This document shows positions 37,004-43,227 of a stretch of 64,000 nt of DNA, one piece after another. A model generated the notes under the pieces. The model saw nothing but the letters and a program-made list of their open reading frames with translations, searched no databases and was not told where the DNA came from. This DNA is from Rhodoluna sp. GTDB taxonomy: Bacteria; Actinomycetota; Actinomycetes; Actinomycetales; Microbacteriaceae. Numbering within the stretch: position 1 is the stretch's first letter; the number at the start of each line of letters is the position of its first letter. A program made the position numbers and the translations under genes. The DNA lies in the NCBI GenBank assembly GCA_024641095.1, contig JAHEDR010000001.1, forward strand, positions 508,387 to 572,386. Direction: 5' to 3'.

Positions 37004-39085
37004 TTAAGCGTCAATTCGTTCGCGCTCGAAGCCATCGGCTGAATCAATAATGAAGTCACGTCTTGGTGCTACTTCATTACCCATCAAAAGTTCAAAGACC
37101 GTTTCGGCAGCGGCTGCATCTTCTACGCGCACTCTACGAAGGCTTCTTGCACCCTTATCCATTGTGGTTTCCGCAAGCTGATCTGCGTCCATCTCACCAA
37201 GACCCTTGTAGCGCTGAATTGGTTCTTTGTAGCGCTTGCCAGCCTTCTCAAGTTTCTTCAGCAATTCTTGGAGCTCTGCTTGTGAATAGGTGTAGATAAC
37301 CTCGTTAGCCTTTGAACCTGCGTTCACGACCTCTACGCGGTGAAGTGGTGGAACAGCTGCGTAAACTCTTCCAGCCTCCACCAGAGGACGCATGTAGCGG
37401 AAGAACAACGTGAGCAAAAGAGTACGAATGTGAGCACCGTCAACGTCGGCATCTGACATCAAAATCACTTTGCCGTATCTGGCCGAGTCAAGATCAAAAC
37501 TTCTTCCAGAACCAGCACCAATAACCTGAATAATTGATGCGCATTCGGCATTAGAAAGCATGTCTGAGATTGACGCCTTCTGAACATTTAGAATTTTTCC
37601 GCGAATTGGAAGAAGTGCCTGGAACTCACTATCGCGAGCTAGCTTTGCGGTACCCAAAGCAGAGTCACCCTCAACGATGAACAACTCGGAACCGGATGTT
37701 TCTTGAGTGCGGCAATCAACAAGCTTGGTAGGAAGGGAACTACTTTCAAGCGCGTTCTTGCGGCGCTGAGTTTCTTTGTGGCTGCGGGCCGAAATACGAG
37801 ACTTCATCTCGGCAACGACCTTCTCCAAAAGCAGCGCAGATTGAGCTTTGTCGTCGCGCTTAGAGCTCGAGAATCTTGCGTTCAAACTCTTGGCAACAAC
37901 ATTGGCCACGATGTTCTTTACCGCTGGGGTACCAAGAATCTCTTTGGTCTGACCCTCAAACTGCGGCTCGGCAAGGCGAACGGTTACAACCGCTGTAAGG
38001 CCGGCAAGAATGTCTTCTTTCTCGACCTTGTCATTGCCAACCTTAAGTTTTCGCGCGATTGCGTCGATCTGGCTGCGCAGAGTCTTAAGAAGTGACTGCT
38101 CGAAGCCTTGAATGTGAGTTCCACCCTTTGGCGTAGCGATGATGTTCACATAAGACTTGACCTCGGTGTCGTAGCCAGTTCCCCAGCGAACGGCAATGTC
38201 AACCTCACAATTGCGCTCAACCTCTTTAGAAACCATGTTGCCCGAGGCATCCAATACTGGAATGGTCTCGGTGAATGAACCGGAACCTGAAAGTCGCCAC
38301 GTTGAGGTGAGAGCTGGGTCCTTGGCTAAGTATTCGGCGTATTCAATGATTCCGCCGTCAAATTTGAACTCCTGCTTATTGGACTTGCCATCGCGAAGAT
38401 CATTAATGCCTAGTGAAAGCCCTGGCACCAAGAAGGCAGTCTGCCTTGCTCTTGCAGAGAGCTCCTCTAGTGCAAATACGGCGTCTTTGATGAAAATCTG
38501 TGGGTCAACCCAGTAGCGCACTCTGGTACCGGTGACATTTTTGCCAACCTTGCCAACTTCACGAAGGACTGAGCCGTCTTCAAATGGCTTGAATGGGTTG
38601 TCAGGCTTGATGCCTTTTTTGTCGTCAAAAATTCCAGGCTCGCCACGTCTAAACGACATTGCGTAGGTTTTTCCGCCGCGATCAACTTCAACGTCCAGTC
38701 TTTGCGAGAGAGCATTAACCACCGATGCACCAACACCGTGCAAACCACCTGAGGCAGCATAGGAACCGGAACCAAATTTTCCACCAGCATGCAGCTTGGT
38801 GAATACAACCTCAACACCGCTCAAACCGGTTTTTGGTTCAATATCAACCGGGATACCACGGGCTTTATCGGTGACCTCTACGCTGCCGTCTTTGTGCAAC
38901 ACAACTTCAATTCGACTACCGTGGCCAGCCAGAGCCTCATCAACAGAGTTATCGATAATCTCCCAGAGACAGTGCATAAGGCCTCGACTATCAGTCGAGC
39001 CAATGTACATACCCGGGCGTTTTCTAACGGCCTCGAGACCCTCTAGAACAGAGAGATGGCGAGCTGAATAGTCATTGTTTGGCAC
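37004..39085 (-). CDS. parE: Type II topoisomerase subunit B (ParE-like)
   Basis: GHKL ATPase (RKRPGMYIGSTDSRGLMHCLWEIIDNSVDEA), EGDSALGTAKLARD, DADVDGAHIRTLLLT. Confidence 0.9.
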   Translation of the reverse strand: MPNNDYSARHLSVLEGLEAVRKRPGMYIGSTDSRGLMHCLWEIIDNSVDEALAGHGSRIEVVLHKDGSVEVTDKARGIPVDIEPKTGLSGVEVVFTKLHAGGKFGSGSYAASGGLHGVGASVVNALSQRLDVEVDRGGKTYAMSFRRGEPGIFDDKKGIKPDNPFKPFEDGSVLREVGKVGKNVTGTRVRYWVDPQIFIKDAVFALEELSARARQTAFLVPGLSLGINDLRDGKSNKQEFKFDGGIIEYAEYLAKDPALTSTWRLSGSGSFTETIPVLDASGNMVSKEVERNCEVDIAVRWGTGYDTEVKSYVNIIATPKGGTHIQGFEQSLLKTLRSQIDAIARKLKVGNDKVEKEDILAGLTAVVTVRLAEPQFEGQTKEILGTPAVKNIVANVVAKSLNARFSSSKRDDKAQSALLLEKVVAEMKSRISARSHKETQRRKNALESSSLPTKLVDCRTQETSGSELFIVEGDSALGTAKLARDSEFQALLPIRGKILNVQKASISDMLSNAECASIIQVIGAGSGRSFDLDSARYGKVILMSDADVDGAHIRTLLLTLFFRYMRPLVEAGRVYAAVPPLHRVEVVNAGSKANEVIYTYSQAELQELLKKLEKAGKRYKEPIQRYKGLGEMDADQLAETTMDKGARSLRRVRVEDAAAAETVFELLMGNEVAPRRDFIIDSADGFERERIDA

Positions 39086-39233: not shown

Positions 39234-39461
39234 ATGCAGTCAGTAAACGAAGCAGTAGAACCAGGCGCAGAAATCAGCGAACCTACCCAGCTAAACGCTG
39301 CTGATCGTTGTGACGTATGTGGCGCACAGGCCTACATTCGCGTTGAGCTTGCTACAGGAGAACTTATGTTCTGCTCACACCACGGAAACGAAAAGAAGGC
39401 TCAGCTTGAGCCGATTGCCGTGAACTGGCACGACGAGTCTCAAAAGCTACTCGCTCGCTAA
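39234..39461 (+). CDS. Small zinc-binding protein (DUF7455-like)
   Basis: RCDVCGAQAYIRVELATGELMFCSHHG; ATG at 39234 with AAGGCAA RBS. Confidence 0.8.
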   Translation: MQSVNEAVEPGAEISEPTQLNAADRCDVCGAQAYIRVELATGELMFCSHHGNEKKAQLEPIAVNWHDESQKLLAR

Positions 39462-40073
39462 TTCTCTTTCGAGCTTCCAGACCGAGCCAACGATCTCGGA
39501 AATCACCTGAATATTTTTTGAACCTGAGCTTGGTGCGATCGGCACCTGCTCGCCCTTGGCCGCCAAAATCTCGGCAAAGTACTCATCTACTAATGCCGGG
39601 TTCTTGCTAAATACTGGACCGTGAAGCTGAGTGCCCAGGCTTAAACCTTGACGCTGAATGACTGGCGCTTTTGAAGAAGCGTTCACATAGCCAAGAACTT
39701 CTCTCCCCTGCAAATCAGCAACCTCAAACTTGGACACTCTTTCGGTTGGCTCAAGACTTCCGCCAAAAAGACCAAGCTCGATAGCTCTCTCGTATCCACT
39801 TGCCACGGCCATGAATGCCGTACCTCTAGCAATAAATGACTCAAGTTGCGGGGCAATTATTTGAATCTCGTTTTCAAGATCTGCCCAAGCTGCCATGGAG
39901 CCGTGGCCAAGAAAAATGAAATCTGCGTCCGATGGAATCAATTGGCCTTTGTCGATGGCCGTGATTTTTACCTCGTAGCCAAACCATTCAAGACGCTTTT
40001 TTGCAACCTTGAGGTTGGCCTGATCTCCATTTAGATCTAAGTGCTTTGGGAACAGTGCAACTAGATTGATCAA
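39447..40073 (-). CDS. gatD: GatD-like type 1 glutamine amidotransferase homologue lacking the catalytic Cys
   Basis: GATase_3 layout; LHGPVFSKNPALVDEYF retains His; nucleophile elbow is MAVASGYE instead of xAVCGGYQ. Confidence 0.85.
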   Translation of the reverse strand: MINLVALFPKHLDLNGDQANLKVAKKRLEWFGYEVKITAIDKGQLIPSDADFIFLGHGSMAAWADLENEIQIIAPQLESFIARGTAFMAVASGYERAIELGLFGGSLEPTERVSKFEVADLQGREVLGYVNASSKAPVIQRQGLSLGTQLHGPVFSKNPALVDEYFAEILAAKGEQVPIAPSSGSKNIQVISEIVGSVWKLERELASE

Positions 40074-41338
40074 CGTTCCACCGCCTCAGGGTCAACAAAG
40101 CCCAGTGCTCTGCGGGTACGGCGCATTGCGTCGGCTGAGAAGATGACAGTTCTGCGCCCACTCTTAGGAGCCGGCAAGCTAAAGAATTTCTCCAATGCAA
40201 CATCTAAGTCTGGAATGATTTCGCCAATAGCAATCTCGTCATAAGCCAAGCGCAGAGCGATTTCTGCGTAATTGAAGCCAGTGACAATATCCACGGCTGG
40301 CATGTGTTTCATGTCTACTGTCCAAAGCCAAGATGGGTCATGCACGTCGCGACCAATTGCAACCATTACCTGTTCTTGGTCCTTAGGTAGATTGTCCAAG
40401 TTGAGCTGGAAGCTCATTGGGTTCTGAACCAGAATGAATTCAACATCCACCCCATTTACCTGAGTTACTTCACCGCGGGCAAATACCGGCGGCAACTCGG
40501 CAAGGGTGACCGCCGCCAATTTTGCATCGAATGAACTACCCAGGTACCTGCGCGCGCTCTCCAGGGCCGCTGCTGCATCTAGAGCAAAATGAATGCCTCG
40601 GTTTGGCAGGTCGAACGAGACTTCTACAGCACCAACACGAGCCTTTGTGGCCGCACTACCGTGCTCCTGAATTTCTGTATCAACCTGTGGTCTTGGCAAT
40701 TCACTCAGGTAGGTTGGTGCATTTCCAAGTCCGTGCTCGGTGGCAGCAATAATCTGATTTTCAATTCCAAACCAAGATGTCTTTGGGTTATGAACCTTCT
40801 TATTGATCAGCAGCACATTCTGATCATCTGCATTTAAAACCAGTGCCTCGGTTGCTCGTTCCGAAACGGCAGCCAGCTTGTCTCGCACCAATGCAGGGTC
40901 AATGAAGCGGTCCAGTTGATCATCTAAAACATTGAGCACGGTCACTTGTCTTGGTTTGATGCGCTTGGTTATCTCGGCGGCGTGGCCTTCGTCCATTTCA
41001 AGAATTGCAACGTCGCCAGAAATCTTTGCGCCAAGAGTTGAACGCTCAATGATTGACGAGAAAAAGCCCTGCGCAATGTTTGCCGTGGAAGGATTAGTGA
41101 AAACGACTTTGCCGTGCGCTCTTGCAATTGCAACCAACATTTTTGTAGTGGTTGATTTGCCAGCCGAACCGGTTACAACAAGCAACCCCTCGGGAAATTT
41201 GGAAAGTGTCTTTGCCAACAATCCGGGAGCGATTTTGCTGAGCACCAACCCCGGCAACGCTGATCCGCCACCAGGCCGTACTAGGCGAACCGCCGTGCGC
41301 ACTAAACGCCCAATCAGAATCGCTGGTACGTAGAACAC
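40070..41338 (-). CDS. murT: MurT-like Mur ligase (DUF1727), Cys-free
   Basis: P-loop VVTGSAGKSTTTKM, NPMSFQLNL, GRDVHDPSWLWTVD; overlaps gatD by 4 nt. Confidence 0.88.
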   Translation of the reverse strand: MFYVPAILIGRLVRTAVRLVRPGGGSALPGLVLSKIAPGLLAKTLSKFPEGLLVVTGSAGKSTTTKMLVAIARAHGKVVFTNPSTANIAQGFFSSIIERSTLGAKISGDVAILEMDEGHAAEITKRIKPRQVTVLNVLDDQLDRFIDPALVRDKLAAVSERATEALVLNADDQNVLLINKKVHNPKTSWFGIENQIIAATEHGLGNAPTYLSELPRPQVDTEIQEHGSAATKARVGAVEVSFDLPNRGIHFALDAAAALESARRYLGSSFDAKLAAVTLAELPPVFARGEVTQVNGVDVEFILVQNPMSFQLNLDNLPKDQEQVMVAIGRDVHDPSWLWTVDMKHMPAVDIVTGFNYAEIALRLAYDEIAIGEIIPDLDVALEKFFSLPAPKSGRRTVIFSADAMRRTRRALGFVDPEAVER

Positions 41339-41345
41339 GTTGAAA

Positions 41346-43100
41346 TTAGTTCTCTAGGTAATCGCGTAGCATCTGTGAGCGAGATGGGTGACGAAGCTTA
41401 GACATGGTCTTTGATTCAATCTGGCGAATGCGTTCGCGGGTTACGCCAAACTCTTCACCAATCTGATCAAGTGTCTTCTGCACGCCATCACCAAGGCCGA
41501 ATCTGCTGCGAATAACTCCAGCTTCGCGTGGGTGAAGTGAATCCAAGATTCGCTCCAGTTCACGCTGCAACATGGTGAAGCCAACTGCGTCAGCAGGCAC
41601 CACTGCCTCTGTGTCTTCAATCAGGTCACCGAATTCACTGTCGCCATCTTCACCAAGTGGAGTTGAAAGCGAGATAGGTTCGCGACCGTATTTCTGAACC
41701 TCAACAACCTTTTCAGGTGTCATGTCTAGTTCGCGAGCAAGTTCCTCTGGGGTTGGTTCGCGACCAAGGTCTTGAAGCAACTGACGCTGTACTCGTGCAA
41801 GCTTGTTAATGACTTCAACCATGTGCACCGGAATACGAATGGTTCGTGCCTGGTCAGCCATGGCGCGAGTAATAGCCTGACGAATCCACCAGGTTGCATA
41901 AGTAGAGAACTTATAACCCTTGGTGTAGTCAAACTTTTCAACCGCACGAATGAGGCCCAGGTTTCCTTCTTGAATCAAGTCAAGGAACTGCATTCCGCGG
42001 CCGGTGTAGCGCTTAGCCAAGCTAACAACCAAACGTAGGTTGGCCTCAAGCAAGTGGCTCTTTGCACGCTGACCATCTTTCACAACCCACTTCAGGTCGC
42101 GCTCAACGTCGCGTGAAATCTTTTTATCGGTGGCAAGTTTTTCTTCGGCGAACAAACCGGCTTCAATGCGCTTTGCCAACTCAACCTCAAGCTCGGCATT
42201 TAGCAGCGCAACTTTACCGATTTGCTTCAGGTAGTCCTTAACCGGGTCTGCAGTTGCACCGGTGATGGTTGTGGTCTGCGCAGGAATGTCATCTTCTTCG
42301 CGGTGCGAAAGAACCATACCGCCAAGGTTTTCGATTTCCTTGCTCTTTACATCTTCAGGTTCTTCTTCTGGAAGTTCCTCTTCAACCGCAGCAATGTCTA
42401 CAACTGCTGCAGCTTCGGCAACGATCTCATCGACTGATTCCAAATCAGCATCGTCATCAAGCTCTTCTTCGTCATCTGCCATTCCCTTTGGCAATTTGCT
42501 TGCCTTAGCTGGCTTAGCTTTGTTTGCCGGAACCGCTGCGGCCTTGCCCTTAGCGGCAGGCTTCGCTGCAACTTTGGCAGCAGGCTTGGTTGTCTTTGCC
42601 GCTGGCTTTGCAGAAACTTTTGCTGCAGCTTTAGCCGCAGGCTTTGCAACCTTCGCTGCAGGCTTCGCAGCCGGCTTAGTTGCCTTAGCCGCAGGCTTTA
42701 CTGCCGGCTTTGCCGCAACTTTGACAGCAGGCTTTGCGGTTTTAGCCGCTGGCTTGGCAGAAACTTTTGCTGCAGCTTTAGCCGCAGGCTTTGCAACCTT
42801 CGCTGCAGGCTTCGCAGCCGGCTTAGTTGCCTTAGCCGCAGGCTTTGCTGCTGGCTTTGAAGCTGCCTTGACAGCTGGCTTTACTGCAGCAGTCTTTGCT
42901 GCAGCTTTGGCCGCAGGCTTTGTGGTTTTGGCTACTGGCTTGGCAGTTTTTGCTGCCGCCTTTGCAGGGGTCGAAGAAATTGCTCTGGTTTCCTTAGCTT
43001 TAGTGGTCTTTACTGCCTCTGATTTATCGCTTGACCCACGCAAAAGACCCGCAAACAAGCCACGCTTGCTGCTCTTGGTCTCTACATCTTTCTTAGCCAA
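41346..43100 (-). CDS. rpoD: Primary sigma factor RpoD/SigA with long Lys/Ala/Pro-rich N-terminal extension
   Basis: [38 protein letters not shown], region 4.2 [15 protein letters not shown] start after GAGAGG. Confidence 0.95.
42611..42846. repeat. 89-bp perfect direct repeat, 147-bp period, inside rpoD 5' region
   Basis: cagaaacttttgctgcagctttagccgcaggctttgcaaccttcgctgcaggcttcgcagccggcttagttgccttagccgcaggcttt at 42611-42699 and 42758-42846. Confidence 0.95.
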
Positions 43101-43227
43101 TTGATACCTCTCGACGCCCCCACCGATCCGATTTATACCGTTCCGGGCATTACTAAGACCCATGTCAAGTCCTTTTCAAGAAAGGACGACTGGGTCTTGT
43201 TTGAAATTATAGCCCCGAAACTAGGCT

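Follow-up and report, generated by a model that had tools for sequence, protein, structure and literature searches.

A MurT/pseudo-GatD pair of Microbacteriaceae as candidate ligase for the cross-bridge of B-type peptidoglycan

Many Microbacteriaceae maintain a MurT/GatD-like protein pair in which the glutaminase subunit has lost its catalytic cysteine. We consider it probable that this pair, a neofunctionalised MurT with a pseudo-GatD, joins the cross-bridge amino acid of B-type peptidoglycan to the alpha-carboxyl of D-Glu; its substrate, its reaction and the role of GatD are what we infer. In B-type peptidoglycan, the D-Glu alpha-carboxyl carries the cross-bridge, and both MurT and the Mur ligases convert a carboxyl into an acyl phosphate, which is then attacked by an amine. 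Since this carboxyl is the branching point of B-type walls, an enzyme responsible for the step must activate it and accept an amino acid. MurT is the best candidate as it is freed from ammonia supply, is under selection and occupies a chromosomal slot shared with an amide ligase and racemases.

The pair was found in a 64,000-nucleotide stretch of DNA from Rhodoluna sp. (the window). The features considered here are listed below; rpoD and gyrB/parE were recognised from sequence features, and DUF7455 is the family to which the small gene presumably belongs.

37004..39085, minus strand: gyrB/parE-type topoisomerase gene, downstream border of the slot (sequence features)
39234..39461, plus strand: small zinc-finger-like DUF7455-type gene, downstream border of the slot
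39447..40073, minus strand: gatD-like pseudo-glutaminase, 208 aa, TTG start, without cysteine
39621..39623, minus strand: codon of His151, the triad histidine kept in the GatD-like protein
39801..39803, minus strand: codon GCA of Ala91, nucleophile position of the GatD-like protein, motif FMAVASGYE
40070..41338, minus strand: murT-like Mur ligase, 422 aa, without cysteine, Mur_ligase_M and MurT_C domains
40922..40924, minus strand: codon of MurT Asp139, which replaces the gate Arg (S. pneumoniae MurT Arg135) by alignment
41346..43163, minus strand: rpoD, upstream border of the conserved slot (sequence features)

The GatD-like protein turned out to be one residue shorter than the 209 aa originally predicted; its lack of cysteine with Ala91 at the nucleophile position, the retained His-bearing segment and the 4-nt overlap with the murT-like frame were all confirmed from open reading frames and codons. 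The murT-like protein scores above the curated cut-offs of both MurT_C (PF08353) and Mur_ligase_M. The NCBIfam GatD and MurT models match the pair far below their curated cut-offs (88 bits against 800 for the MurT equivalog). Among solved structures, S. aureus GatD/MurT match the pair by sequence, with MurT of S. aureus, S. pyogenes and S. pneumoniae being closest to the murT-like protein, and predicted models of the GatD-like (pLDDT 93) and murT-like protein (pLDDT 92) find their best fold matches in S. aureus GatD and MurT, respectively. Residue 91 of the GatD-like model is located between strand 86-90 and helix 92-99, which is the nucleophile elbow. The protein hence combines a GATase fold closest to GatD and the triad histidine with absence of the nucleophile cysteine. 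It escaped detection by Pfam GATase_3, so that profiles built in this analysis were used instead. The murT-like protein keeps the P-loop Lys, Asp334 of DPSW and the N-P motif, and is equally free of cysteines, so that its Cys4 zinc-ribbon tetrad is absent and a substitute cysteine, named in the original prediction as possible counter-evidence, is found in neither subunit. The zinc-ribbon insertion is also missing from MurT in part of the Actinobacteria (PMC6085368). In S. aureus GatD, amidation is abolished by the exchange C94G, whereas C94A suppresses the glutaminase activity that remains (PMC6085368).

The window genome (1.2 Mb, 11 contigs, 96.5% complete) encodes a single MurT_C protein and yields three GATase_3 matches, two of which are PurQ and HisH by sequence. 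A second GatD was rejected on these grounds, as no other MurT is present to partner the third match. A second intact MurT/GatD pair performing amidation, which would have spoken against the proposed function, was thus not seen in this genome. A search of the same genome for a second protein with an alanine-racemase C-domain gave none, which counts against the proposed function insofar as a D-diamino acid would need a source there.

Is the exchange at Ala91 a peculiarity of one genome? We collected MurT together with the neighbouring GatD from 232 loci across family, order, class and phylum. The family was recognised as Microbacteriaceae from its named loci and from further pairs that match them, e.g. 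L045 matching Clavibacter L273. The nucleophile cysteine is present in 90/90 MurT-partnered GatDs outside Microbacteriaceae and absent in 127 of the 142 pairs inside the family, being replaced by Gly (93), Ala (16), His (10), Ser (5) or Asn (3); all 105 active-type pairs examined have Cys at the position of Ala91. The change is therefore not due to chance. The Cys-less pair is limited to a family with B-type walls (0/90 outside, in a sample drawn from Actinomycetota), and Cys-less GatDs scattered among A-type species, a further potential objection, were not encountered in it. Where resolvable, most Cys-less pairs are located between rpoD and DUF7455/parE; for a few (L054, L059, L089, L090), no rpoD is visible in the fetched flank. 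The 15 Cys-bearing Microbacteriaceae pairs are located elsewhere, without rpoD or parE alongside. The main Cys-less group (64 rows) emerges from the MurT tree as a single, fully supported clade, with active pairs of its own order as sister. Independently of this clade, a second Cys-less lineage arose, most members of which also reside in the rpoD-parE slot. Window MurT found matches in 138/150 Microbacteriaceae genomes, the weakest of which are other Mur ligases; after a profile re-search of genomes with low or no match, MurT was scored as absent in 27/150. That MurT had been overlooked in these 27 was considered and rejected, as the profile search returned just weak matches sized like other Mur ligases.

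Loss of the nucleophile is coupled to a change in the partner subunit. According to the S. pneumoniae structure, MurT Arg135 serves to seal off access to the active site of GatD (PMC6085368). By alignment, window Asp139 corresponds to this residue, with the numbering offset deduced from the Arg/Asp/Arg spacing. The gate Arg is present in 105/105 Cys-bearing pairs versus 0/117 of the main Cys-less set. Three members of the second lineage (L088-L090) are counted in this set; the remainder of that lineage retains the Arg (10/10). Cysteine and gate Arg are thus lost together across subunits. MurT is switched at further columns: the P-loop TNGKT is replaced by S.GKS, Asn at position 254 by Asp, and Gly after the N-P motif by Ser. 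Where active MurTs have Asn-Asn at window columns 251 and 254, the Cys-less clade has Tyr/Phe-Asp; these columns lie where Mur ligases bind the base of the nucleotide, and an altered nucleotide preference of the clade is possible. As originally proposed, GatD is retained despite its lost cysteine: median dN/dS is 0.17 for Cys-less GatD (24 pairs), equal to 0.17 for Cys-bearing GatD (21 pairs), and 0.11 for MurT of Cys-less pairs. Cys-less GatD is hence under normal purifying selection.

The slot has the order rpoD-[ ]-DUF7455-parE, and what fills it differs between relatives. Relatives without MurT carry a PF01996 protein (F420-0:gamma-glutamyl ligase family, CofE-like) and an ATP-grasp protein (PF14397) in the rpoD-parE interval, and some add alanine-racemase-like genes or an EctB-type diaminobutyrate transaminase, the latter seen in two CofE-type loci. 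Of 80 named Microbacteriaceae loci fetched via the neighbour of rpoD, 79 show rpoD: 43 hold MurT, 34 hold the CofE-like gene, none holds both and two hold neither (one of them contig-cut). This exclusivity among 77 named loci corresponds to a Fisher p of about 2e-20, a descriptive value that ignores kinship. On a PAC2+ParE tree, parsimony places 16 exchanges between the two modules, at least 10 to 12 of which are forced by well-supported branches. Among 150 Microbacteriaceae genomes, a CofE-like gene occurs in 21/27 without MurT versus 2/123 others; in these two exceptions (L336 and L338; genomes G112 and G049), a distant CofE-like gene lies directly upstream of MurT and Cys-less GatD. Alanine-racemase-like genes accompany 24/77 named loci, 11 with MurT and 13 with CofE. 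That relatives carry racemase and diamino-acid genes in the slot occupied by the pair supports the original interpretation. Loss of the cysteine in a B-type family only, together with a slot shared with racemases and ligases, suggests that the pair probably attaches the cross-link amino acid. We lean slightly towards a wider reading, according to which the rpoD-parE slot is a dedicated group-B cross-bridge locus, where either MurT with pseudo-GatD or CofE-like protein with ATP-grasp attaches the cross-bridge amino acid to the alpha-carboxyl of D-Glu and neighbouring racemases set its D- or L-configuration.

Several further observations were made during the slot survey. The slot racemase is a two-gene pair (L226, L246, L271, L322 and others), one protein consisting of the C-domain only and its partner of the N-domain with a weak C-domain. 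A 0.93-Mb Microbacteriaceae genome (L339; G013) has the order rpoD-MurT-GatD(Ser)-racemase pair-parE, and its sole Ala_racemase_C protein is located in the slot; from this content, a B-type wall is predicted for this organism. In Aurantimicrobium minutum (L310), the slot is empty. In two other families of the order (G159, G188, G229, G259 and others), CofE-like domains occur in open frames of about 840-1020 aa, and a MurT search of these members gave weak, MurC-F-like matches only. Two records titled Planococcus sp. APC 4015 (L255) and Acidobacteria bacterium G2_35 (L314) carry Microbacteriaceae-type loci and are likely mislabelled or contaminated.

For most loci, the peptidoglycan type is known at genus level only. 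Rhodoluna lacicola, a member of the family with a genome of comparably small size, has a B2beta wall with Dab (PMC4156110). Subtercola is described as B2gamma with Dab and Agreia as having L-Dab linked to D-Orn (PMC5945732); the Subtercola slot contains MurT-GatD and lacks racemases, and MurT-GatD with racemases was found in 3/3 Agreia loci. Clavibacter, described as B2gamma with Dab (PMC5882085), also has MurT-GatD. Lacisediminihabitans (Dab) and Homoserinimonas (D-Orn; PMC7033078), both B-type by description, hold CofE/ATP-grasp in the slot. For the M. testaceum clade, mostly D-Orn is given (PMC10757982) and the M. testaceum locus holds CofE, ATP-grasp and racemases; D-Orn is also reported for M. 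radiodurans (PMC10757982), whose slot has no racemase. With chemotypes mixed for a given slot content, neither module nor racemase maps simply onto the diamino acid. Besides the 27/150 genomes without MurT, 11 fetched genomes with MurT elsewhere and no Cys-less pair at rpoD have an empty slot (L325-L335), so that the link between the pair and B-type walls is apparently not one-to-one. The original prediction that cysteine loss fits B-type cross-linking thus stands insofar as the loss is confined to a family whose described members are B-type, and probably does not hold as a strict rule. Its reading of the pair overall is supported in part, namely by cysteine loss, restriction to the family, selection and slot, whereas the added nucleophile may be a diamino acid, Gly or another amino acid.

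How might such a pair work? MurT would still activate the D-Glu alpha-carboxyl of a peptidoglycan precursor as acyl phosphate, and would then join to it, instead of ammonia, a cross-bridge amino acid through its amine (Gly, or a diamino acid like D-Dab or D-Orn). The resulting branch would lead to B-type (2-4) cross-links, and GatD, devoid of glutaminase chemistry, may be kept for a structural role or for binding a ligand. An additional Gly is present in some B types, and some slot loci carry one or two ATP-grasp genes, in one case together with MurT and GatD; the pair could accordingly add a single non-diamino residue such as Gly to the carboxyl, with another enzyme, e.g. the ATP-grasp protein, adding the diamino acid. 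We regard this division of labour as unlikely, since Dab-type Clavibacter, Subtercola and Cryobacterium have MurT-GatD alone in the slot. Slightly less probable still is an ammonia-dependent amidase, in which MurT makes D-isoglutamine from free ammonium and GatD is a mere scaffold: the catalytic motifs kept in MurT (P-loop Lys, Asp334 of DPSW, N-P motif) would permit it, but none of the 117 MurTs in the main Cys-less set has the ammonia gate Arg, CofE/ATP-grasp takes turns with the pair in a slot that is linked to racemases, and in B-type walls the carboxyl to be amidated bears the cross-bridge. A relic, decaying or regulatory and with no ligase role in the wall, is very improbable: loss of the triad His, too, in 37/117 of the main set would fit it, but dN/dS stays at 0.17 (GatD) and 0.11 (MurT), the pair is kept in place across the family and the catalytic Mur motifs are intact. 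Attachment of the cross-bridge amino acid by MurT/pseudo-GatD hence remains our preferred reading.

Taxonomists have relied on B-type walls since 1972, and we know of no gene assigned to attaching their cross-link amino acid; among the papers searched, none names an enzyme that joins the cross-bridge to D-Glu. If the proposal is true, MurT/pseudo-GatD and CofE/ATP-grasp would, as far as we know, be the first genes assigned to B-type cross-linking, and specific candidate genes with a specific reaction are herewith offered for the cross-bridge step. A peptide ligase would have evolved from an amidotransferase whose glutaminase survives as a pseudoenzyme. As Microbacteriaceae associated with plants and animals are covered by the prediction, it also raises a drug-target question.

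Compared to known systems, the window pair shares with MurT/GatD of S. aureus and S. pneumoniae the two-gene operon of Mur ligase and GATase-fold subunit, the MurT_C domain, the overall folds, the P-loop and DPSW motifs and, as predicted, the same carboxyl (D-Glu alpha). It differs in lacking nucleophile Cys, gate Arg and Cys4 ribbon, and would join an amino acid where those enzymes join ammonia. ATP-dependent carboxyl activation, attack by an amino-acid amine and a similar fold connect it to MurC-F and the archaeal pseudomurein ligases, which in contrast have no GatD-like subunit and act at other stem-peptide positions. The CofE (F420-0:gamma-glutamyl ligase)/ATPgrasp_ST module resembles the pair in being a set of predicted carboxyl-to-amine ligases in the same rpoD-parE slot of sister species, but belongs to unrelated protein families, and the two are mutually exclusive in named loci.
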